Assembly (NCBI RefSeq): GCF_963675975.1
Contig: NZ_OY780939.1
Span: 248,001 to 312,000, forward strand
Origin: Halarcobacter sp.
Lineage (GTDB): Bacteria; Campylobacterota; Campylobacteria; Campylobacterales; Arcobacteraceae
DNA: 64,000 nucleotides
Direction: 5' to 3'
The translations under genes were made by a program, and so were the position numbers. Below, piece after piece: positions 3,833 through 51,316 of the stretch (positions within the stretch are counted from its first letter, which is position 1; the number at the start of each line of letters is the position of its first letter). The notes beneath the pieces are model-generated. The model ran no database searches. It was given only the letters and a program-made list of their open reading frames with translations, and had not been told where the DNA came from.

Positions 3833-4231
3833 ATGGATATTGAGATATCAACACCTGCACTTCTTTTTCCTGCAATTTCACTACTACTTTTGGCATATAC
3901 AAATAGATTTTTAACAACTGGTCAATTAATCAGAGCCCTTAGTAGTCAAGCTAGAAAAGATGGAATCAGAGAATTCAAAGGTCAAATTGCAAACTTAAAA
4001 AAAAGACTTGAACTTACAAAATGGATGCAGTTTTTTGGAGTGGTATCTATACTTTTATGTACTATTTCAATGTTTTGTCTTTTTTTAGGTTTTAATGATG
4101 TTGGAAAAAAAATCTTTGGTTTAAGTCTCATTACTATGTGTATATCACTTGCAATTTCTCTTTGGGAAGTATATATCTCGTCAAATGCTCTGAATTTGGA
4201 ATTAAAAGATTTAACAGATAAATGTAACTAG
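3833..4231 (+). CDS. DUF2721 family inner-membrane protein
   Basis: A 132-residue protein with the DUF2721 pattern: ISTPALLFPAISLLLLAYTNRF at the start (first membrane helix, about 8-24), a basic cytoplasmic stretch rich in Arg/Lys with an EFKGQIANLKKRLELTK helix, then two more membrane helices (about 66-86 and 92-113). No biochemical role is known for the family. It has its own promoter region, divergent from the glycosyltransferase gene, and is followed by the DsrE-family gene in the same direction. The start follows a purine-rich AAAAAAAAGG tract. Confidence 0.75.
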   Translation: MDIEISTPALLFPAISLLLLAYTNRFLTTGQLIRALSSQARKDGIREFKGQIANLKKRLELTKWMQFFGVVSILLCTISMFCLFLGFNDVGKKIFGLSLITMCISLAISLWEVYISSNALNLELKDLTDKCN

Positions 4232-4266
4232 ATTTAAATATTTATAAAAGTAAAAGTTAGCAATGT

Positions 4267-4272
4267 TATAAT
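4267..4272 (+). promoter_or_regulatory. -10 box of the DsrE-family gene
   Basis: TATAAT 27 bases upstream of the start codon, after an AT-rich stretch and without a clear -35 box, as is usual for housekeeping promoters in this lineage. Confidence 0.5.
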
Positions 4273-4299
4273 TTTTAAAATTACTTAAAAGGTTTAGAT

Positions 4300-4638
4300 A
4301 TGCAAAAAGAAGCGAAAATTTTATGGACTACAGATAATAAAGAAACAGCTTTAAATATGGTACTTTTATATGCTCACAATGCTAAACTTAAAGGCTGGAT
4401 GGAAGAAGTTTCTGTTTTAGTTTGGGGAACTAGTCAAAAACTAATTTCTCAAGATAAAGAGATTCAAGAAAAAGTTAAAGCTATGATAGATGATGGTGTA
4501 AAAGTTACAGCTTGTCTAAAGTGTGCTGAAAATATGCAGATTGCAGAAGGTTTAGAAGCTTGTAATATTGATATTTATTATACTGGTGAGCTTTTAAGTG
4601 ATTGGATAAAAAGTGGTGATACAATAATTAGTGTTTAA
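4300..4638 (+). CDS. DsrE family protein
   Basis: A 112-residue cytoplasmic protein of the DsrE fold. It has an N-terminal strand (AKILWTTDNKETALNMVLLYAHNAKLKGW) and VSVLVWGTSQKL, followed by a cysteine-bearing segment with C72 and C75 (ACLKCAENM) and C88. DsrE-like proteins move or reduce sulfur, and a Cys at the first of these positions is commonly the active one. The CxxC could form a disulfide. There are no sulfur-relay neighbours, so the substrate is open. It ends in a hairpin shared with rnr on the other strand. Confidence 0.75.
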   Translation: MQKEAKILWTTDNKETALNMVLLYAHNAKLKGWMEEVSVLVWGTSQKLISQDKEIQEKVKAMIDDGVKVTACLKCAENMQIAEGLEACNIDIYYTGELLSDWIKSGDTIISV

Positions 4639-4647
4639 GACACTAAT
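4627..4647. terminator. Convergent terminator-like hairpin between the DsrE gene and rnr
   Basis: ATTAGTGT and ACACTAAT pair perfectly around a 5-base loop. The stop codons of both convergent genes lie inside it. There is no strong T run on either side, so efficiency is uncertain. Confidence 0.45.
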
Positions 4648-6493
4648 ATTTCACACTCCCTATTATCTTTTTAGAGATTAAATCACTTGATTTAAGAACT
4701 ACTCTTATTTTACTAAAAAGAGTTTGCCCTTTATAGTTATCTAGATATATTTTAGCTCCACTTATCTCAGAATAAGTAACTGCTATACCCCTTTCTGTAT
4801 CAGTTATTTTTGCTTTTACTTCTTTTCCTATATTTTTTAAAGCCCATCTTGCATATTTTCTATCTTCATAATCCCAAACCATTTGATCAATTTTTCTCTC
4901 TTGAATTGAGATATGGTCACAAATAATATCTATATCTTTAGGAGTTTGTTTAGATTTTAAAATTCTATGTAAAACTAAATCAGAATATCTTCTAATTGGA
5001 CTTGTAAAATGTGAATATGATGTAAAACCTAAACCAAAGTGTCCTAAGTTTTTTGAACTATATTTTGCTTGGGTTTGGGAATGAATAATTAATTCATCAA
5101 TCTCTTCACGTAGTGTTGTTTTATTTGCTTTTTCTTGAATATGAGTGATTGTTGTATGAACATCATTTTGTAATTTTACTTTTACCCCTAAGGCATTTAC
5201 ATCATCTACAAGTTTTGATATTGCTTTAAAAGGTGGTTCTTCGTGAATTCTAAAAATACCTACACTATTTACTTTTTTACTAGCTTCAATATTTGCTAAA
5301 AGCATACACTCTTCTATTAATTGATGTGAAGCGGATGATGTTTCAATCTCTACACTTTGAATCTCTCCATTTTTTAATCTTAGTCTATGCTCACTACTTC
5401 TAAAATCATATCCCTTTACAAGTCTTTTTTTTCTAAATGCCTTTGTAACTTCATATAAAGGTAAAATATAATCAAATATTTTTTTCTCTGTTTGAGTATA
5501 TGTATCAAACTTCTCTTCTAAAACCCTGTCAATTCTTCCATATGAAAATTTTTTGTGAGAATTTATCAAAGCTTCAAATAGTTCTGATTTTTTCACTTCA
5601 AATTTTTCTAAATCTAAATATATTTTAAATACATATGAGTATCTATCAACACCCTCTTTTAATGAACATAAATCTTCACTTAATTCATTTGGAAGCATTG
5701 GTAATACTTTTGAAGGTAGATACGCAGAAGTAGATTTTTTATAAGCTAATTTATCTAATTCACTCCCCTCTTTTACAAAATATGAAACATCAGCAATTGC
5801 TACATATAAAACTGCATTCTCCCAGTCAAAATATATTGCATCATCGTGGTCTTTTGCAGTATTTGGATCAATAGTACAAAAAGGTAAATCTCTTAAATCC
5901 ACCCTTTGTTTTTCATCATCCATTTTAGCATCAACATCAATTTTTGTAGTAACTCTATAATCTTCTGAATATAAATTTAAAGATATTATCTCATCAACTT
6001 TATTATCACTTATATTTCCAAAGTTTTTTACAACATCAAAGCTTTTACTATCTATTAATAAAATATCCCCATCATTTAAGTTTTTGTCAACTTTTGCTTG
6101 AAGTTTTATAGATTCTTTTATGGTAAAGTAGCTTTTATCTTTTGTATAAACTAATATTTCACTTTTTTTACTATTTGAAAAAACCTTTTCAACTTTTGCT
6201 TTTATTTTACTTCTTGGATTGAAAACTCTTTTTGCAAGAACTAAATCCCCATCATAGGCACCATTTAGATGTTCAAAATCTAAATTTATATTTTTATGTT
6301 CATTAAGTAAATCACAAAGTACTGCTCTATTTTTTTCTATTTTTACTATTCCAACTCTATATTTTGAGTTTATTTCATAAGTTTCATTTTTTACAATAAA
6401 TCCATCTTTTACGAAATCTTCTAATATTTCTATCTCTTGCTTATTAAAATCTTTTATATGTTGTTGTATCTTTTTAAATAATTCATTAAACAA
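4643..6493 (-). CDS. rnr: Ribonuclease R / RNase II-family 3'-5' exoribonuclease
   Basis: 616 residues with an N-terminal cold-shock-like region and the RNB catalytic domain. The metal-binding aspartates are visible at D209, D215, D217 and D218 (TIDPNTAKDHDDAIYF). They are followed by the family strings YVAIADVSYFV, LPMLPNELSEDLCSLKEGVDR and FTSPIRRYSDLVLHR. The C-terminal S1-like part (about 540-610) is short and there is no long basic tail, so the protein is about 200 residues shorter than E. coli RNase R, as usual for Campylobacterota. It degrades structured RNA processively. Confidence 0.93.
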   Translation of the reverse strand: MFNELFKKIQQHIKDFNKQEIEILEDFVKDGFIVKNETYEINSKYRVGIVKIEKNRAVLCDLLNEHKNINLDFEHLNGAYDGDLVLAKRVFNPRSKIKAKVEKVFSNSKKSEILVYTKDKSYFTIKESIKLQAKVDKNLNDGDILLIDSKSFDVVKNFGNISDNKVDEIISLNLYSEDYRVTTKIDVDAKMDDEKQRVDLRDLPFCTIDPNTAKDHDDAIYFDWENAVLYVAIADVSYFVKEGSELDKLAYKKSTSAYLPSKVLPMLPNELSEDLCSLKEGVDRYSYVFKIYLDLEKFEVKKSELFEALINSHKKFSYGRIDRVLEEKFDTYTQTEKKIFDYILPLYEVTKAFRKKRLVKGYDFRSSEHRLRLKNGEIQSVEIETSSASHQLIEECMLLANIEASKKVNSVGIFRIHEEPPFKAISKLVDDVNALGVKVKLQNDVHTTITHIQEKANKTTLREEIDELIIHSQTQAKYSSKNLGHFGLGFTSYSHFTSPIRRYSDLVLHRILKSKQTPKDIDIICDHISIQERKIDQMVWDYEDRKYARWALKNIGKEVKAKITDTERGIAVTYSEISGAKIYLDNYKGQTLFSKIRVVLKSSDLISKKIIGSVKY

Positions 6494-43538: not shown

Positions 43539-43898
<360 letters not shown>

Positions 43899-43949: not shown

Positions 43950-45137
43950 TTAGAATGCTCTTTTAAATTCTGGGTATGCTTCTAAACCACATTCATCAAC
44001 ATCTAAGCCTTGCATCTCTTCATCTCTATCTGCTCTTAATGGAATTATTTTATTAATAATATATAAAACTACAAATGATACCACAAATGCAAATGCCCCA
44101 ACAACAACTACACCTTTTAGTTGACCTAAAAACGTAATATCATCACCATTACTTGCAAAAATTCCTACTGCTAAAGTTCCCCAAATACCATTTAAAAGGT
44201 GTACTGATAAAGCCCCAACAGGATCATCAAGTCTTAATTTATCAAATAGTGATACACCAATTACTACAATTAAACCACCAATTGCACCAATTAAAATTGG
44301 AGTATAAATATTATATAAATCTGGTCCAGCAGTAATTGCAACTAAACCACCTAAAGCACCATTTAAAATCATTGTAATATCAAGTTTTTTATATAAAATA
44401 TACATCATAATACCAACAACAATTGCACCTGCAAGACCTGCTGTATTTGTATTCATAATAGTTAGTGCAACTGCATCAGCAGCTTCTTTTGAAGATATAG
44501 AACCTACACTTCCTCCATTAAATCCAAACCATCCAATCCATAAAAGGAAAGCTCCTAATGTAACTAAAGGTATATTTGATGCAGGAATAACTCTAACACC
44601 ACCCTCTTTAGTATATCTTCCATGTCTAGAACCAATAATTAAAATTGCAGCTAAAAGTGCCCATCCACCAGTAGAGTGTATTACTGTCGAACCTGCTAAA
44701 TCATACATGTTTATATCAAAAAATGTTCCATCTAACATATCACTTCCCCAAGACCAATTCACTACTGTAGGATAAATAAATCCACCCATTATTACAGTAA
44801 ATATTGCCAAAGGAATCACTTTTGCTCTTTCACTAACTCCCCCTGACATAATATTTATAACTTTCCCAACAAATGCCATTTGAAATAAAAAAGCTGCCCA
44901 TTTAGACATTGAATCACTACCAAAGTCTCCAAAGGCTATAGAGTACCCAACTAATAAAAATGCTAATGATGCTATTGCATAAATCATTGTATTTACCATT
45001 AACACAGCTGAAACATTTTTTGTTCTAACAAGTCCAGCTTCTAACATGGCAAAACCTGGTACCATAAAGATGATTAGTGTCATTGCAAAAATTGCAAAAA
45101 AAGTATCAATAACATAACTTATTGATTGTAAGTCCAT
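43950..45137 (-). CDS. amt: Ammonium transporter (second copy)
   Basis: 395 residues, 11 membrane helices. Landmarks are FLVGYSIAFGDF, the pore histidines in STVIHSTGGWALLA and ALSVHLLNGIWGTLAVG, WIGWFGFNGGS and NTNTAGLAGAIV. It conducts ammonium inward and is gated by PII. It is followed by PII and pyrC and preceded by a promoter with TATAAT at 45170-45175 and the shared GTATA-N5-TATAC element further upstream. Confidence 0.96.
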   Translation of the reverse strand: MDLQSISYVIDTFFAIFAMTLIIFMVPGFAMLEAGLVRTKNVSAVLMVNTMIYAIASLAFLLVGYSIAFGDFGSDSMSKWAAFLFQMAFVGKVINIMSGGVSERAKVIPLAIFTVIMGGFIYPTVVNWSWGSDMLDGTFFDINMYDLAGSTVIHSTGGWALLAAILIIGSRHGRYTKEGGVRVIPASNIPLVTLGAFLLWIGWFGFNGGSVGSISSKEAADAVALTIMNTNTAGLAGAIVVGIMMYILYKKLDITMILNGALGGLVAITAGPDLYNIYTPILIGAIGGLIVVIGVSLFDKLRLDDPVGALSVHLLNGIWGTLAVGIFASNGDDITFLGQLKGVVVVGAFAFVVSFVVLYIINKIIPLRADRDEEMQGLDVDECGLEAYPEFKRAF

Positions 45138-45208
45138 ATTTAAATCCTCGCTTTCTCTGATTGGCGAGTATTATATATTTTTTTTAAGATTTTAAAAAGT
45201 AGTCTTTT

Positions 45209-45223
45209 GTATATTTTATATAC
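45209..45223. promoter_or_regulatory. Candidate nitrogen operator C, upstream of amt2
   Basis: GTATA-TTTTA-TATAC, a perfect inverted repeat, lies 33 bases upstream of the amt2 -10 box (minus-strand TATAAT, 45170-45175). It is nested in a larger inverted repeat with outer arms TAGTCTTT/AAAGACTA (45200-45207 and 45232-45239). Close copies lie in front of amt1 and of the sensor-regulator-glnD operon. Confidence 0.5.
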
Positions 45224-45276
45224 ATATATATAAAGACTATATAGAAGAGGAGAAAATCTCCATCTTCCATAAAATG

Positions 45277-45624
<348 letters not shown>

Positions 45625-45636
45625 CTACCTATCTTA

Positions 45637-46851
45637 TTAAGCTTTTTTGAATTCTGGGTAACACTCTAATCCAGTTTCGTGGATATCAAGTCCAGTAATT
45701 TCAGTCTCTTCATCTACTCTTAATCCCATGATTACATCTAAAATCTTCCATACAATGAATGATACGATGAATACAAATGCACCAATTACAACAACACCTT
45801 TGATTTGAGCAAGGATTGTTACATCTGGATTAAAGATACCAACTGCGATAGTTCCCCAGATACCAGCAACTAAGTGAACAGATAATGCACCAACAGGATC
45901 ATCAATTTTTAACTTATCGAAGAATGGTACAGCAAATACTACAAGAGCACCACCAACAAGACCTTCAATAAATGCAACTAACATACCTAAGTCTGGACCA
46001 GCTGTACAAGATACAAGACCAGCTAAAGCACCATTTAATACCATAGTTAAATCAACTTTTTTGTATAGAAGTTGAGTTAATAATGCAGCCATAACAGCAC
46101 CAGCTGCAGCAGCCATATTTGTATCAGCAACAACTAAAGCAATTCCATCAATATCAGCTTTTGAACCTAATGCTAATTGAGAACCACCATTGAATCCAAA
46201 CCATCCCATCCATAGAATGAATGTACCTAATGTAGCAAGTGTTAAGTTTGAACCAGGAATTGGTCTTACTTTACCATCTTTAGTATATTTACCTTTTCTA
46301 GCACCTAAGATTAATACACCAGCTAATGCTGCCCATCCACCAACAGAGTGAACAATTGTAGAACCTGCGAAGTCAGAGAATCCTGCGATTAATCCACCTA
46401 ACTCAGTTCCACCCCATGTCCAGTGACCTTGAATTGGATAAATTACACCACTTAAAACAACAACGAATATTAAGAATGGCCATAATTTCATTCTTTCAGC
46501 AATTGTTCCAGAGATTACTGATGCTGCAGTTGCAACGAACATAACTTGGAAGAAAAAGTCTGCTGCTGCTGGGTAAGAAGCATCAGCTGCACTTTCCATT
46601 GAAATTGTTGAGAAGCTTCCCATGAAAGCTGAACCATCACCATACATTAAATTGTATCCAATGAAATAGTACATAATACAAGAGATTGCAAATAATGCAA
46701 TATTTTTAGTTAATACTGTCGCATTATTTTTAGTTCTTGTTAAACCTGATTCTAGCATAGCAAAACCTGCTGCCATCCACATTACTAATACACCAGAAAA
46801 CACAAATAGAAAACCATCTAATATGTATTTTAAGTCGTTAAAATTTTCCAT
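45637..46851 (-). CDS. amt: Ammonium transporter (first copy)
   Basis: 404 residues from the ATG at 46851, chosen because GGAAAAGG precedes it; a frame reaching 46905 lacks a site and runs through the promoter. It has 11 membrane helices with SGTIAERMKLWPFL, STIVHSVGGWAALAGVLILGARKGKYTKDG, WMGWFGFNGGSQLALG and ALSVHLVAGIWGTIAVGIF carrying the paired pore histidines. It forms an operon with PII. The promoter has a TACAAT -10 (46883-46888) with the shared operator upstream. Confidence 0.96.
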   Translation of the reverse strand: MENFNDLKYILDGFLFVFSGVLVMWMAAGFAMLESGLTRTKNNATVLTKNIALFAISCIMYYFIGYNLMYGDGSAFMGSFSTISMESAADASYPAAADFFFQVMFVATAASVISGTIAERMKLWPFLIFVVVLSGVIYPIQGHWTWGGTELGGLIAGFSDFAGSTIVHSVGGWAALAGVLILGARKGKYTKDGKVRPIPGSNLTLATLGTFILWMGWFGFNGGSQLALGSKADIDGIALVVADTNMAAAAGAVMAALLTQLLYKKVDLTMVLNGALAGLVSCTAGPDLGMLVAFIEGLVGGALVVFAVPFFDKLKIDDPVGALSVHLVAGIWGTIAVGIFNPDVTILAQIKGVVVIGAFVFIVSFIVWKILDVIMGLRVDEETEITGLDIHETGLECYPEFKKA

Positions 46852-46916
46852 ATTTTTCCTTTTCCAAAATAAATATGCTGAAATTGTATCAGATAAATAA
46901 ATCAATTTCCCACTTT

Positions 46917-46947
46917 TTATGTATATATTTTATACAGTATTATATAA
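46917..46947. promoter_or_regulatory. Candidate nitrogen operator A, upstream of amt1
   Basis: The core GTATA-TATTT-TATAC (46921-46935) lies 32 bases upstream of the amt1 -10 box, almost the same distance as operator C from the amt2 -10 box. The wider 31-base segment repeats, with a 2-base gap and three substitutions, at 47078-47110. Confidence 0.55.
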
Positions 46948-47077
46948 AATATCTCTAATCCTATAATATAAATCCCTATTTTATGGGCTCTATAAAAAAC
47001 TTACATTTTTGTAGATTGCTTTATTCTCTTCTTTAATAATTGAACAGATTTTTATTTTTTAGATAATTGTTTAGTTT

Positions 47078-47111
47078 TTATACATATATTTTATATACAG
47101 TATGATATAAT
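47078..47111. promoter_or_regulatory. Candidate nitrogen operator B and -10 box of the sensor-regulator-glnD operon
   Basis: The core ATATA-TTTTA-TATAC (47084-47098) is one mismatch from operator C. It ends seven bases before TATAAT (47106-47111), so a bound protein would cover the -35 region. Position suggests repression or autoregulation here, in contrast to the upstream sites at the amt genes. Confidence 0.55.
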
Positions 47112-47134: not shown

Positions 47135-47998
47135 ATGAAAGAATACTTAGAAGTATATTTTCAAAATCAAGAAAAAATAGAAAACTTTTTACAAGAAAGC
47201 CTTTTAAAACTTGGGGAACTAAAGTGTTTAAGAGAACAAAACTTTAAAGAGATTTTTTCTATGTTTCCATCTTTGGAATTAGTATATATAATAAACAAAG
47301 ATACTAAATTACAAATTTCTCCTAATTTTTATAAAAATAATAATATTGATAAAAGTGCACAAAATATATCAAGAGAGTATTTAATATCTAAATTACATTT
47401 TAAAGAGAATAGTGCAGCAGCATTTAGTACTCCATATGTTAGTAGTGCTACAAGAAATAGTTGTGTGACTGTTTCAGTAAAAGAGGGTAATTACATTTTA
47501 TTTTTTGATTTTAAAATTGAATCTTTATTGGAAAGATTAAATTTAATAGAATTAAACAAGCCCTTTCATACTGTGACAAAAGCATTTTATACAATTGCTG
47601 GTTATTCGATGTTTTTATTATCAATTTTTATGGTTTGTTATTCTATGTATGACTTTGTCCATTCGTTTATGGTAAAGGGTATATTCAATCTTGACACTAT
47701 ATTTAAACCAATTATTGCCTTAACCTTAGGTGTTGCAATTTTTGATTTGGCAAAAACAATATTAGAACAAGAGGTTTACTTTAAAAGTTATTCTAAAAAC
47801 TCAAAAGTTGAAACAAAGATGATAACAAAGTTTTTAATTTCAATTATTATTGCTTTATCGATTGAAGCTTTAATGGTTGTATTTAAAATAGCAATTAATG
47901 ACTATGATAAGATGATTAATGCTTTATATCTTATAACTGGTATCTCGCTTATCTTAATCGCTTTATCTATATTTATATATTTAACAAAAAAGAAATAA
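47135..47998 (+). CDS. Membrane protein with N-terminal Cache/PDC-like sensor domain, in a nitrogen-control operon
   Basis: 287 residues with strong AAGGAG upstream. Residues 1-135 are soluble and PDC/Cache-like (PSLELVYIINKDTKLQISPNFYK; AAFSTPYVSSATRNSCVTVSV). Four hydrophobic helices follow (about 150-174, 190-210, 231-252, 262-283). There is no signal peptide or helix before the sensor domain, so it should lie in the cytoplasm, unusual for a Cache fold. It heads an operon with a shrunken NtrC-like regulator and glnD, which suggests nitrogen sensing. No output domain is visible. The family name is not known to me. Confidence 0.75.
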   Translation: MKEYLEVYFQNQEKIENFLQESLLKLGELKCLREQNFKEIFSMFPSLELVYIINKDTKLQISPNFYKNNNIDKSAQNISREYLISKLHFKENSAAAFSTPYVSSATRNSCVTVSVKEGNYILFFDFKIESLLERLNLIELNKPFHTVTKAFYTIAGYSMFLLSIFMVCYSMYDFVHSFMVKGIFNLDTIFKPIIALTLGVAIFDLAKTILEQEVYFKSYSKNSKVETKMITKFLISIIIALSIEALMVVFKIAINDYDKMINALYLITGISLILIALSIFIYLTKKK

Positions 47999-48030: not shown

Positions 48031-48789
48031 ATGGAAAATTATATAGCAATATCTAAAAATTCTAAAGAGATTTTAAACTCTGCACATCTATTACAAAGTG
48101 TAGAGGTAAATGCTTTAATATCAGGAGAAGCCGGTGTAGGTAAAAAATCTTTATCTCAATATATAGTTCCTAAAGCTCCAGTTTTTAAAGCAAAAAACTT
48201 ACAACAAGATATTAGTGACAATATAATAAATCTGCAAAACTGTTCAGTTATTATTGATAAAATAGAAAATATTACAAATGTAGACCTATTTATAAACTGG
48301 GCAAATGAAAATGGGATTAGAGTTATAGCAACAACTCTAAAAGATGAACTTAACAGTAAACTATCTGAGCTTTTCTCAATCACTATTGAGCTTCCACCTT
48401 TAAGGGATAGAGAAGAGGATGTAAAAGCACTAACTCAAAAGTTCTCAAAAGAAGCGAGTATTACACTAGATTTAGATCAAATTATACCTTCAAAACTTAT
48501 GATTAATATCTCTAATAATGCTCACAGTTTAAGAAAATCAATTTACTTTTCATATCTTTTTGAAACAATTGGAGAAGATGAGATACTGATGTTTATGGAA
48601 AACTATATGTATGCTAATATGAAAGGTGAAAACTCTTATAAAGATTTCCTTTATCTGTTAGAAGTTCCTATTTTAAAAGCAGCAAATAAAAAATATAAAT
48701 CACAAGTTCAAATGGCTAAACATCTTGGATTAAATAGAATTACTCTTAGAAAAAAACTAGATATTCATAAGGAATATTTGAATGACTGA
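48031..48789 (+). CDS. NtrC-type regulator reduced to a minimal AAA+ core and Fis-type helix-turn-helix
   Basis: 252 residues. Walker A is recognisable (SGEAGVGKKS, 31-40), then a weakened Walker B (SVIIDKIENI, 72-81), sensor-I-like RVIATTLKDEL and arginine-finger string PPLRDREEDV (R125, R127). The HTH is at about 226-243 (VQMAKHLGLNRITLRKKLDI). Only about 30 residues separate Walker A from B and there is no GAFTGA loop, so it should not activate sigma-54 polymerase. There is no receiver domain. It overlaps glnD by 8 bases. It is the best candidate to bind the shared operators. Confidence 0.8.
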   Translation: MENYIAISKNSKEILNSAHLLQSVEVNALISGEAGVGKKSLSQYIVPKAPVFKAKNLQQDISDNIINLQNCSVIIDKIENITNVDLFINWANENGIRVIATTLKDELNSKLSELFSITIELPPLRDREEDVKALTQKFSKEASITLDLDQIIPSKLMINISNNAHSLRKSIYFSYLFETIGEDEILMFMENYMYANMKGENSYKDFLYLLEVPILKAANKKYKSQVQMAKHLGLNRITLRKKLDIHKEYLND

Positions 48790-51316
48790 ATTAAATATTC
48801 AGATTGAAGAACTAATATCAAAAAATGCGCAAGACTTTGAGATATCAAAAGTTTTTAGAACCTATTATAAAGATTATGTTTCATCGATTGACACAACTTT
48901 AGAAACAACTGGGGGTAAAGACTTTTTTGTAAAACATACAAAACATACAGATAAGTTTTTAATTCAACTTTATAAATATATTCTTAGAAAACATTTTGGG
49001 GATTATCAACCAATGAGCTCTTCTATTCCAGTAACCTTAGTTGCTTTAGGAAGTTATGGAAGAGAACAATTATGTATCTATTCTGATGTTGATTTAATGA
49101 TCCTTTATCAAGATATAAAAGGATATAACCTAAGACCTATTATGGAAGAGTTAGTTACTCTTGCTTGGGATTGTGGTTTAAAATTAGGTTCAAGAGTTCA
49201 TGAAATAAAAGAGATTGAAGAGGGTGTAAAAGAAGATATTACAATTAAAACCTCTATTTTAGAATCAAGAATCATTTATGGTTCAAAACACCTTTGGTAT
49301 GCCTATGAAAATATCCTAAGAAAAATAAGAAAAACAGACCAAAAAGAGTTTATCCAAGAAAAACTTGAAGAACACAAACAAAGACTTTTAAAATATCCTC
49401 TAAAAATGGAACCAAATATCAAAGATGGATATGGAGGTATGAGAGAATCAAATATGGTTTTCTGGATGGCAACTGTTATTTTTGGTGTTTATGATACAAA
49501 AGAGTTAATAGGAAAAGAGTTTACTGAAGATGAATATAAAAAATATAGAGCAGCCTTAGAATATATTTTTCAAGTAAGAAATGCTTTACACAATATTGCA
49601 AAGAAAAAATTAGATGTGGTTAATTTTGATCTACTACCGGAGCTTAGTAGTAAATTAGGATTTGCACATACTCCTAGGATGACAAAAGAGCGTCAGTGTA
49701 TGGCAAAAATACTTGAGTCATTACATAGAATTCATTTTTTCTCTTCTGTGATGGTAAAAAAATTTACTAGAAGAATAATTTATGAAAATAAAAATATATC
49801 TTTACTAAAAGAGTATAGATATAAAAAAGATATTTATATTATTGATGGTAAATTATACACCTCATTTAGTGTAAAACCTAAACCTTTAGTTCAATTTTTA
49901 AAAGAATTAATTGAATTACCTGATACTGTAAAAATTTTTGATAGGTCTTATGTTTATTATGCAAGTAAAACTATTTTGCCTACAAAACAAACTCAAGAGT
50001 TAAAAAGAACATTAAAAGTCTTATTGTATAAACCAAATCTATATCCATTGATAAAATTAATTTATAATAGTAGATTATTTCAAGCAATCTTACCAATAAC
50101 TAAAAAAATAGTTAATCAACCTCAATTTGATGGATATCATCAGCATCCAGTAGATGTTCACTCTATAAAAGCATTAAAAAAACTTGAAGAGATTAAAGAC
50201 CCATATGTTAATGAGTTATATGAAAGTTTAGAAGAGAAAGAAAAAGCAATTGTTAGAATGGTAACTTTGCTTCATGATGTAGGTAAAGGAAGAGTTACAG
50301 ACCACCATATTTCAGGGGAAAAGCTTTTCAAAAATATGACAACTGCTTATAACTTTGACCATGAACATATCCAAATAGGTTCTTTATTAGTTAGATATCA
50401 TAATATGATGAGTAAAGTTGCAAGTAGTGAAGATATTTATTCAGAAAAAGTGATTTTATCTTTTACGGCATTAGTTAAATCTAAACTTGCATTAAAAATG
50501 CTTTTTATTGTTACCTATGCAGATATTTCAGCTGTAGGTGAAAGTATTTATAAAAGTGCTACAGCTTCTTTATTAAAACAGTTATATTTACAATCTTTAC
50601 CTGCATTTGAGAATACTGCACTTCTTACAGAAAGTGCAAGAAGAAATGCAAAACAAGAAAGAATTAAAAAACTAAATAAATTTAAAACTCTTTCAAATAT
50701 TATGAAGAAAAAGATTTTCTATATTTCTTCAAATCATATGTTCTTAAAAATGAAATCTAATGAGATTATTGATATTGCAGTAAAAGCTCAAAATATCGAT
50801 ACCTTTGATTATGAAATACTAAATGAAAACAATTTAGTTATCAGAATCATTAGAAAAGTACCCCTTAATCTAGGATTTTTACTTGGAAGACTAGAGTTTT
50901 TAAATATCTCTACAATGAATATTTTCAAACTATATGATGAAAAGAAATTTTTTGAGATTAGTTTTTCTGAGAAAGTTGATGATGAAGATATATTATTTAT
51001 TTCACAAATCATTGAAAGCTCTTTTGATATGACTAAGAAAACAAAATTAAATATTCCAATAATTAAAAAAGATGGTATAACTATAGATTGTAATCACACT
51101 ACATATTTAGCATCTATGCAAGTAATAGCTAAGGATCAAAAAGGTTTATTAGCATACATTGCAAAAGTTTTTGATGACTATGGAATAGAGATTGAGACTG
51201 CAAAATTAAGCTCAATAAAAAATAAAGCAAAAGATCTTTTCCTTATAGAAAAAAATGGAAACTTCTGTGCAAAACAAGAACAGATTATTGAAAATCTATG
51301 TGTAGATGGGAAATAA
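48782..51316 (+). CDS. glnD: Bifunctional [protein-PII] uridylyltransferase/uridylyl-removing enzyme
   Basis: 844 residues. The nucleotidyltransferase motif is GSYGREQLCIYSDVDLMIL (aspartates D102 and D104). The GlnD-specific segment MEPNIKDGYGGMRESN and KKKLDVVNFDLLPELS follow. The HD hydrolase domain has GYHQHPVDVHSIKAL and LLHDVGKGRVTDHH. Two ACT domains end the protein, which opens its last part with MQVIAKDQKGLLAYIAKVFDDYGIEIETAKLS. It adds or removes UMP on PII Tyr51 according to glutamine. Both PII genes and both amt genes lie within 9 kb, giving a complete sensing set. Confidence 0.95.
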   Translation: MTELNIQIEELISKNAQDFEISKVFRTYYKDYVSSIDTTLETTGGKDFFVKHTKHTDKFLIQLYKYILRKHFGDYQPMSSSIPVTLVALGSYGREQLCIYSDVDLMILYQDIKGYNLRPIMEELVTLAWDCGLKLGSRVHEIKEIEEGVKEDITIKTSILESRIIYGSKHLWYAYENILRKIRKTDQKEFIQEKLEEHKQRLLKYPLKMEPNIKDGYGGMRESNMVFWMATVIFGVYDTKELIGKEFTEDEYKKYRAALEYIFQVRNALHNIAKKKLDVVNFDLLPELSSKLGFAHTPRMTKERQCMAKILESLHRIHFFSSVMVKKFTRRIIYENKNISLLKEYRYKKDIYIIDGKLYTSFSVKPKPLVQFLKELIELPDTVKIFDRSYVYYASKTILPTKQTQELKRTLKVLLYKPNLYPLIKLIYNSRLFQAILPITKKIVNQPQFDGYHQHPVDVHSIKALKKLEEIKDPYVNELYESLEEKEKAIVRMVTLLHDVGKGRVTDHHISGEKLFKNMTTAYNFDHEHIQIGSLLVRYHNMMSKVASSEDIYSEKVILSFTALVKSKLALKMLFIVTYADISAVGESIYKSATASLLKQLYLQSLPAFENTALLTESARRNAKQERIKKLNKFKTLSNIMKKKIFYISSNHMFLKMKSNEIIDIAVKAQNIDTFDYEILNENNLVIRIIRKVPLNLGFLLGRLEFLNISTMNIFKLYDEKKFFEISFSEKVDDEDILFISQIIESSFDMTKKTKLNIPIIKKDGITIDCNHTTYLASMQVIAKDQKGLLAYIAKVFDDYGIEIETAKLSSIKNKAKDLFLIEKNGNFCAKQEQIIENLCVDGK

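Follow-up and report, generated by a model that had tools for sequence, protein, structure and literature searches.

The window analysed here is a 64,000-nucleotide stretch of a Halarcobacter sp. genome. On its forward strand, positions 48031..48789 encode a 252-aa NtrC-like protein (NLP) with an ATG start, called from the ORF list, homologues in most genomes of the same family (81 of 104), a structural model and a fold match. NLP combines a degenerate AAA+ core with a Fis-type helix-turn-helix (HTH) and has neither a receiver domain nor a GAFTGA loop. The PII uridylyltransferase gene glnD follows on the same strand at 48782..51316 (PF08335 at 92.3 bits, above cut-off; TIGR01693 at E 9.4e-106, under cut-off). 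Its start at 48782 gives an overlap of 8 bp with NLP; an earlier reading of the letters alone (hereafter the sequence-only reading) had described this ORF and this overlap, and the ORF list bears out both. Upstream of NLP, a gene for a 287-aa predicted membrane protein (47135..47998, forward strand) matches no Pfam or NCBIfam family above cut-off, is a conserved neighbour and probably forms one operon with NLP. It is kept beside amt or NLP in many genera, often with the dyad described below in front, and is perhaps a nitrogen-related membrane protein without family assignment. Divergent from this operon lies the ammonium transporter gene amt2 (45637..46851, reverse strand), for which we chose an ATG start within a longer TTG ORF. 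The reverse strand also carries glnK2 (PII; 45277..45615), called like amt2 from its ORF and neighbourhood, and amt1 (ammonium transporter; 43950..45137) and glnK1 (PII; 43539..43877), called from their ORFs and the site survey.

The only conserved nucleotide-binding motif of NLP is the P-loop (Walker A) GEAGVGKK at residues 32-39 (48124..48147, forward strand). Among 110 distinct homologues, G32 and G37 are kept in all and K38 in 108. The Walker-B-like strand SVIIDKIE (residues 72-79; 48244..48267, forward strand) begins at residue 72, 32 residues on, much as the sequence-only reading had put it (about 30 residues). In the 110-homologue alignment this strand is degenerate: the catalytic E is absent, no homologue has the Walker-B 'DE', D stands at residue 76 in 57 and E at residue 77 in 2. 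That reading had overlooked the degeneracy (the window copy reads IIDKIE) and also the loss of the sensor-II arginine, where R is found in 3 of 110 homologues. It was right that Walker A is present, that GAFTGA is gone (none of the 110 homologues has a GAFTGA-like word) and that the receiver domain is missing (no Pfam match at E up to 1). It had further taken PPLRDREED (residues 122-130; 48394..48420, forward strand) for an arginine-finger string. In the NtrC family, the arginine fingers sit just before PPLRxRxED, in a FREDLYYRL-type segment, and PPLRxRxED itself is a structural stretch. The hhalign alignment has gaps at the finger region of NLP, where R is conserved in no column and reaches 7 of 110 homologues at most, so we rejected the finger assignment and treat PPLRDREED as a structural motif. 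With the P-loop kept and the hydrolysis residues gone, ATP binding by NLP is plausible and ATP hydrolysis unlikely; judged from these motifs, NLP likely binds ATP without hydrolysing it.

The predicted Fis-type HTH covers residues ~202-245 (48634..48765, forward strand), assigned from HTH_8 and the alignment, and is the most conserved region of the NLP family. HTH_8 matched 30 of 31 NLP members (E<=0.1), and residues N235, R236, T238, L239, R240, K241 and K242 are invariant across 57 sequences. The sequence-only reading had recognized this domain, which in the window copy lies under the Pfam gathering score (HTH_8 18.3 versus 22), as does the core (Sigma54_activat 18.4 versus 20.2). The NtrC equivalog TIGR01818 scores 36.9 bits against a curated cut-off of 558.6, which NLP misses. 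The case for its kinship to NtrC is thus made by profile and fold comparison rather than by a curated family call.

Profile and structure comparisons agree on that kinship. Searched against PDB sequences, a profile built from the 31 members matched Aquifex NtrC1 (E 3.5e-11), VpsR (7v2b, 3.6e-7) and Fis-type proteins (best 4e-6). With hhalign, NLP residues 3-245 align to residues 139-465 of E. coli NtrC, receiver excluded, at 95% probability (E 3.9e-8). Modelled with AlphaFold2 on 57 sequences (mean pLDDT 91.6), NLP has an AAA+ core and lid helices and ends in an HTH at its C-terminus. NtrC-family AAA+ domains are the best fold matches of this model: NtrC1 (3m0e) ranks first in Foldseek (E 2.9e-8), and FlrC (4qht) superposes at Z 17.0 and rmsd 2.2 over 174 of 245 residues. 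The ~70 unaligned target residues would correspond to the lost L1/L2 region. The NifL-NifA complex 9qq6 is among the matches of both the PDB sequence profile and the fold searches. NLP is NtrC-derived, as the sequence-only reading had proposed.

NLP homologues occur in 81 of the 104 family genomes and 19 of its 20 genera (E<=1e-3), with open frames of ~245-285 aa except for one 45-residue fragment. Since the same architecture recurs in 81 of 104 genomes, a frameshift or misassembly as the source of the short protein was rejected; the possibility had been raised that orthologues would carry GAFTGA, and they are intact and lack it. One genome (G043) has two NLP loci, in an assembly with 7% contamination. 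Across the order, the 31-member profile matches 354 of 398 genomes at E<=1e-3, many of them weakly and perhaps through true sigma-54 activators. A stricter count outside the family (E<1e-10) finds NLP in 240 of 351 genomes, the weak order-wide matches above 1e-10 having been selected by eye. Where a genome there has several profile matches, these may be other activators.

We surveyed linkage at 65 NLP loci, which come from 64 carrier genomes out of 81, one of them counted twice. At 46 loci the next gene downstream, on the same strand, is glnD. At 14 loci NLP adjoins a gene of ~230 aa, its partner (below). An amt gene stands within 1.6 kb at no fewer than 44 loci, a minimum because only 1.5 kb of flank was available at many of the 65. 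Several genera (g8, g11, g12) have the order NLP, partner, amt, glnK. In other families, NLP was also seen within a Tol-Pal/SlyD-type isomerase/FabD cluster (L173-L175, L177-L179, L181, L183, L185-L187); the cluster was named by look, with the isomerase and FabD of L177 confirmed by NCBIfam. In three g2 genomes without NLP (L201, L202, L203), a gene of 642-643 aa overlaps the start of a diverged glnD (~49% identity) next to amt-glnK; Pfam identifies the L201 copy as an ankyrin-repeat protein. This diverged glnD is present in nine non-carriers, and eleven have no glnD of this kind. By look, genes that begin similarly also exist in NLP carriers, preceded by the dyad described below (L087, L099, L230).

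We searched for operators in the 330 bp before amt in 54 family regions, among them close relatives and repeat entries of some genomes, allowing any 6-bp inverted repeat with a spacer of 2-12. A single outlier emerged, TGTATA-N5-TATACA, exact in 35 of the 54 regions against a shuffle mean of 0.03; the best of any dyad reached 2-5 per shuffle. Within one mismatch it occurs in 52 regions (shuffle 0.3). A longer AT-rich repeat suspected by eye was dropped in favour of this dyad, which came from the unbiased search. Matching the pattern to the window gives candidate operators, without assigned strand, before amt2 (exact, 46920..46936, 68 bp to the ATG; the dyad itself was found without a prior pattern), before amt1 (exact, 45208..45224, 70 bp to the ATG) and before the 287-aa gene-NLP-glnD operon (one mismatch, 47068..47084).

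Genome-wide, the exact dyad tracks NLP. The 81 carriers hold 420 copies in 212.9 Mb (1.97/Mb; reversed-pattern control 0.43), the 23 non-carriers 15 in 44.4 Mb (0.34/Mb; control 0.38). No carrier is without an exact dyad, versus 15 of the 23 non-carriers. Within genus g2, 17 carriers have 2-9 exact dyads and 14 non-carriers have none (13) or one (1); these non-carriers may trace back to a single loss or to two, which inflates p-values. The window genome has no genome-wide excess (exact 4 versus 3 in the control, one mismatch 42 versus 49). Among 49 loci from other families (431 kb), 10 dyad matches fall within one mismatch, versus 4 for the reversed pattern. Seven of the ten, from 4 genomes, adjoin NLP, amt or glnK, with exact copies in L170/L134, L172 and L266; no dyad was seen in most of the 49 loci, among them L259 and L265, in which NLP and its partner adjoin amt. 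Three g3 genomes (G032, G033, G034) carry 21, 14 and 12 exact dyads against 0-3 in controls, suggesting an expanded regulon.

NLP is probably the protein that binds the dyad. The dyad might instead belong to another nitrogen regulator, such as one of the CRP family like cyanobacterial NtcA, with NLP only a co-regulated member of the cluster. NtcA sites have the form GTA-N8-TAC, and the TGTA-N9-TACA within the dyad resembles them; the joint loss of NLP, partner and dyad could also include further lost genes, such as another transcription factor. However, the 6-N5-6 geometry is that of the NtrC site, TGCACC-N5-GGTGCA. Within the cluster it is NLP that encodes a DNA-binding domain, and a one-mismatch dyad precedes its own operon; genomes without NLP and partner have dyad counts at background, and in three genomes of other families exact dyads adjoin NLP, amt or glnK. 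We consider a different reader improbable.

The genes behind the dyad are largely those of nitrogen metabolism. We sampled 20 regions with 21 exact sites from 8 genomes, and 14 of the 20 have a nitrogen gene next to the dyad: glnA (4), gltB (3), amt (2), gdhA (2), the quinohemoprotein amine dehydrogenase alpha subunit (2) and a putative urea-transporter binding protein (1). One copy each was confirmed above NCBIfam cut-off for GlnA (TIGR00653), Amt (TIGR00836), GdhA (NF006929), amine dehydrogenase (TIGR03908) and urea binding protein (TIGR03427). A GltB piece of 615 aa, cut by the region end, matches NF008730 at E 7e-206, under cut-off, and the remaining copies were named by look. The other 6 regions have no clear nitrogen gene (a KefC-like exchanger, MPG phosphatase twice, porin/prs twice and MqnE). 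In the window genome, glnA, gltB and gdhA were not found behind exact or one-mismatch dyads. One-mismatch sites there precede urease gamma/beta by 65 bp and UrtA by 76 bp, two picks of 38; urease, UrtA and ureidoglycolate lyase, picked from these 38 sites, are only suggestive as targets. The nitrogen role proposed in the sequence-only reading gains support from the amt, glnK and glnD linkage and from the dyads before glnA, amt, gltB and gdhA.

For promoter geometry we took site-gene pairs with a dyad of at most one mismatch located 40-150 bp ahead of an ORF; limiting downstream identity to at most 80% left 153 non-redundant pairs of 234. An exact TATAAT starts 30-32 bases past the dyad in 56 pairs. 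A second peak at offset 21, one helical turn nearer the dyad, holds 9 of the 153. Words resembling a -10 box occur at offset 28-37 in 97 pairs, versus 37, 44, 32 and 21 in four other offset ranges. The window follows both spacings, with letters checked: a -10-like TACAAT 31 bases past the amt2 operator (46883..46888, reverse strand), a TATAAT 32 bases past that of amt1 (45170..45175, reverse strand), both at the main peak, and a TATAAT 21 bases past the operator of the 287-aa gene-NLP-glnD operon (47106..47111, forward strand), at the secondary peak.

From these spacings we infer that the dyad centre lies at about -52 (or -42) from the transcription start, an activator position, and NLP quite probably activates rather than represses. 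Its being a repressor or co-repressor of the dyad promoters would suit the offset-21 class (an exact TATAAT in 9 of the 153 pairs, and the NLP operon of the window), where the dyad would overlap the -35 region. Yet in the main class the centre would fall near -52, upstream of the -35 region and typical of an activator, and the Rhodobacter capsulatus NtrC, which has no GAFTGA, is reported to activate sigma-70 RNA polymerase (PMC10274813). Repression is, on balance, unlikely.

Sigma-54 itself is patchy in the family. RpoN (PF04552) was matched in 33 of the 104 genomes, and full activator domains (E<=1e-20) in 35, being absent from 69. The two occur together in 31 genomes. Textbook NtrC control cannot be general in this family, because RpoN goes unmatched in 71 of the 104 genomes and a full activator domain in 69. 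Searches of the open literature turned up no published alternative. Among the 81 NLP carriers, 32 have RpoN and 49 have no PF04552 match; the latter include the single-contig assemblies G056, G002 and G003. Going by gene content, sigma-54 is dispensable for NLP. The sigma-54 independence suggested by the sequence-only reading is supported by these 49 carriers and by the constant spacing between dyad and -10 box.

Could NLP still need sigma-54 in the 32 carriers that have RpoN, the window genome among them? The window genome does encode RpoN and one strong full activator with a GAF-AAA-Fis layout, NifA-like by look (RpoN and activator loci L001 1060-2610 and G000:C1:761382-761846, from domain searches). 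Against this, GAFTGA and the Walker-B DE are absent in all 110 homologues, and no GG-N10-GC lies between dyad and gene in any of the 153 pairs, which is weak evidence in AT-rich DNA. A full activator domain, present in 31 of the 33 RpoN genomes, would moreover explain why RpoN is retained. A sigma-54 requirement is therefore very unlikely.

NLP is inherited together with the partner, a shrunken NtrB-like protein likewise present in 81 of the 104 family genomes. Both are found in 80 genomes and neither in 22; the two discordant genomes, one of each kind, are G075 (86% complete) and G041 (91%). Outside the family, 234 of 351 genomes have both, 106 neither, 6 NLP alone and 5 the partner alone. 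Fisher's test gives p 2.7e-20 (family) and 2.5e-75 (outside), ignoring phylogeny. A few genomes (families f14 and f15) have two partner matches. This close pairing bears on whether NLP is a decaying, pseudogene-like remnant kept through its glnD linkage, as the loss of its catalytic motifs might suggest. Such decay is extremely unlikely: besides the pairing, NLP is conserved order-wide with invariant P-loop and HTH residues, and its linkages differ between genera.

Where the partner does not lie beside NLP, it usually lies beside the housekeeping sigma factor gene. In the window genome, the partner survey places it far from NLP (C1:1949474-1950151). At all 12 of the examined family loci that hold it away from NLP, it is directly behind rpoD with gaps of 1-9 bp. 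The RpoD of L193 was confirmed by NF004208 (E 3e-215), and the other family RpoDs are 78-89% identical to it. In other families the same holds for 14 of 19 regions (gaps of -4 to 16 bp, one of 205); four of the remaining five have the partner next to NLP, three of them also with amt, and the fifth is L256, where tblastn places the partner gene at 4001-4681. The rpoD-partner order was seen at L193 4995-7551, L248-L255, L257, L258, L260, L262, L264 and L267, which span several families. Travelling with rpoD is no more than a suggestive hint of co-production with sigma-70. Since the partner adjoins rpoD wherever it is not beside NLP, the two linkages of NLP (partner/amt and tol-pal/fabD) seem better read as one relocated gene than as two paralogue types.

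The NtrB likeness of the partner is convincing only in the fold search. The window-genome copy has one NCBIfam match, to NtrB (NF008293, E 2.1e-4, 20.6 bits versus a cut-off of 240), and the L260 copy has none at E<=1e-4. hhalign against E. coli NtrB gives a weak 3% probability, and the partner profile finds no relevant match among PDB sequences. In the structural model (pLDDT 84.4), residues 1-92 look PAS-like and are scarcely covered by structure comparison; PAS models match at most 2 of 26 members, weakly. Residues ~97-229 resemble histidine-kinase catalytic domains, including NtrB 1r62 (Foldseek E 3.3e-5, TM 0.60 by target; Z 13.1, 116 aligned residues, rmsd 2.7, tied with ETR1 and ThkA). 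None of 30 partner sequences contains HExxNP, the N-box NxxxNA, DxGxG or GxGLG, and all 30 contain a [YFV]Dx[STAD][IL]P word resembling YDPSLPE of NtrB. As modelled, the partner is a kinase fold without an acceptor His or canonical ATP boxes; lacking acceptor His, N-box and G-boxes, it would therefore be a kinase fold stripped of its phosphotransfer parts.

The best explanation of these observations, and a fairly probable one, is that NLP and partner are a phosphotransfer-free remnant of NtrB/NtrC that activates sigma-70 nitrogen promoters. The HTH of NLP would probably bind TGTATA-N5-TATACA and switch on sigma-70 promoters of amt-glnK, glnA, gltB, gdhA, urea- and amine-use genes and its own operon. 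It would act together with the co-inherited shrunken NtrB, made up of a PAS-like domain and a degenerate GHKL domain without phospho-acceptor helices. Judging by the sequences, phosphotransfer from NtrB to NtrC looks impossible here, because the partner has no acceptor His and NLP no receiver. The most likely route is consequently direct contact from partner to NLP, as in NifL-NifA, and by that analogy we lean towards contact signalling. The likeliest input would be PII: GlnK or GlnB, whose state depends on GlnD and 2-oxoglutarate, would act on the GHKL domain of the partner. PII acts on NtrB and on NifL; by analogy, we rate a PII input here as an even prospect. ATP would be held, not hydrolysed, in the P-loop of NLP. 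The sequence-only reading had NLP reading the ATP state directly; the partner is a second route for a signal, which goes beyond that view. A bolder version, less likely than not, is a nitrogen switch used across the order: both halves of NtrB/NtrC would have lost phosphotransfer, the ATPase motor and the sigma-54 contact and would now signal by contact to the housekeeping polymerase. With the sensor often made alongside RpoD, PII status would then reach sigma-70 promoters directly. On the preferred reading, NLP, partner, dyad and promoter geometry illustrate how a sigma-54-dependent two-component system may be reduced to a sigma-70 switch.

Several known systems share parts of this arrangement. 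NtrC proteins without GAFTGA that act at sigma-70 promoters are known. That of R. capsulatus, of the NtrC lineage like NLP, is reported to work with housekeeping RNA polymerase while binding rather than hydrolysing ATP, and to need aspartyl phosphorylation (PMC10274813), hence a receiver and a true NtrB; NLP lacks the receiver and all of the L1 region, and its partner has no phospho-acceptor His. Caulobacter NtrC also has no GAFTGA, controls glnBA and glnK-amt and is proposed to act at sigma-70 promoters (PMC10274813). It differs in having a deletion of just eight residues, in the reported importance of ATP binding, ATP hydrolysis and receiver D56, and in its pairing with the NtrB kinase. Both proteins depend on receiver phosphorylation; in searches of open-licence papers, no pair with both halves stripped came up. 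In NifL-NifA, a PAS and GHKL sensor controls an NtrC-family regulator by contact rather than phosphotransfer, and GlnK can act on NifL. NifA, however, is a complete sigma-54 activator, whereas NLP and its partner are both cut down and sigma-54 would be dispensable. The E. coli NtrC regulon covers glnA, amt and glnK, and the dyad regulon overlaps it in these three. NLP matches E. coli NtrC over its AAA+ domain and HTH but lacks the receiver, L1 loop, arginine fingers and Walker-B E; the partner shares with NtrB a similar catalytic fold and a YDxSxPE-type motif but lacks the acceptor His, N-box and G-boxes. The sigma-70 regulators VpsR and TyrR resemble NLP in having an NtrC-family fold without a working GAFTGA, TyrR being a further instance of that loss; both have full-size AAA+ domains and respond to other signals.
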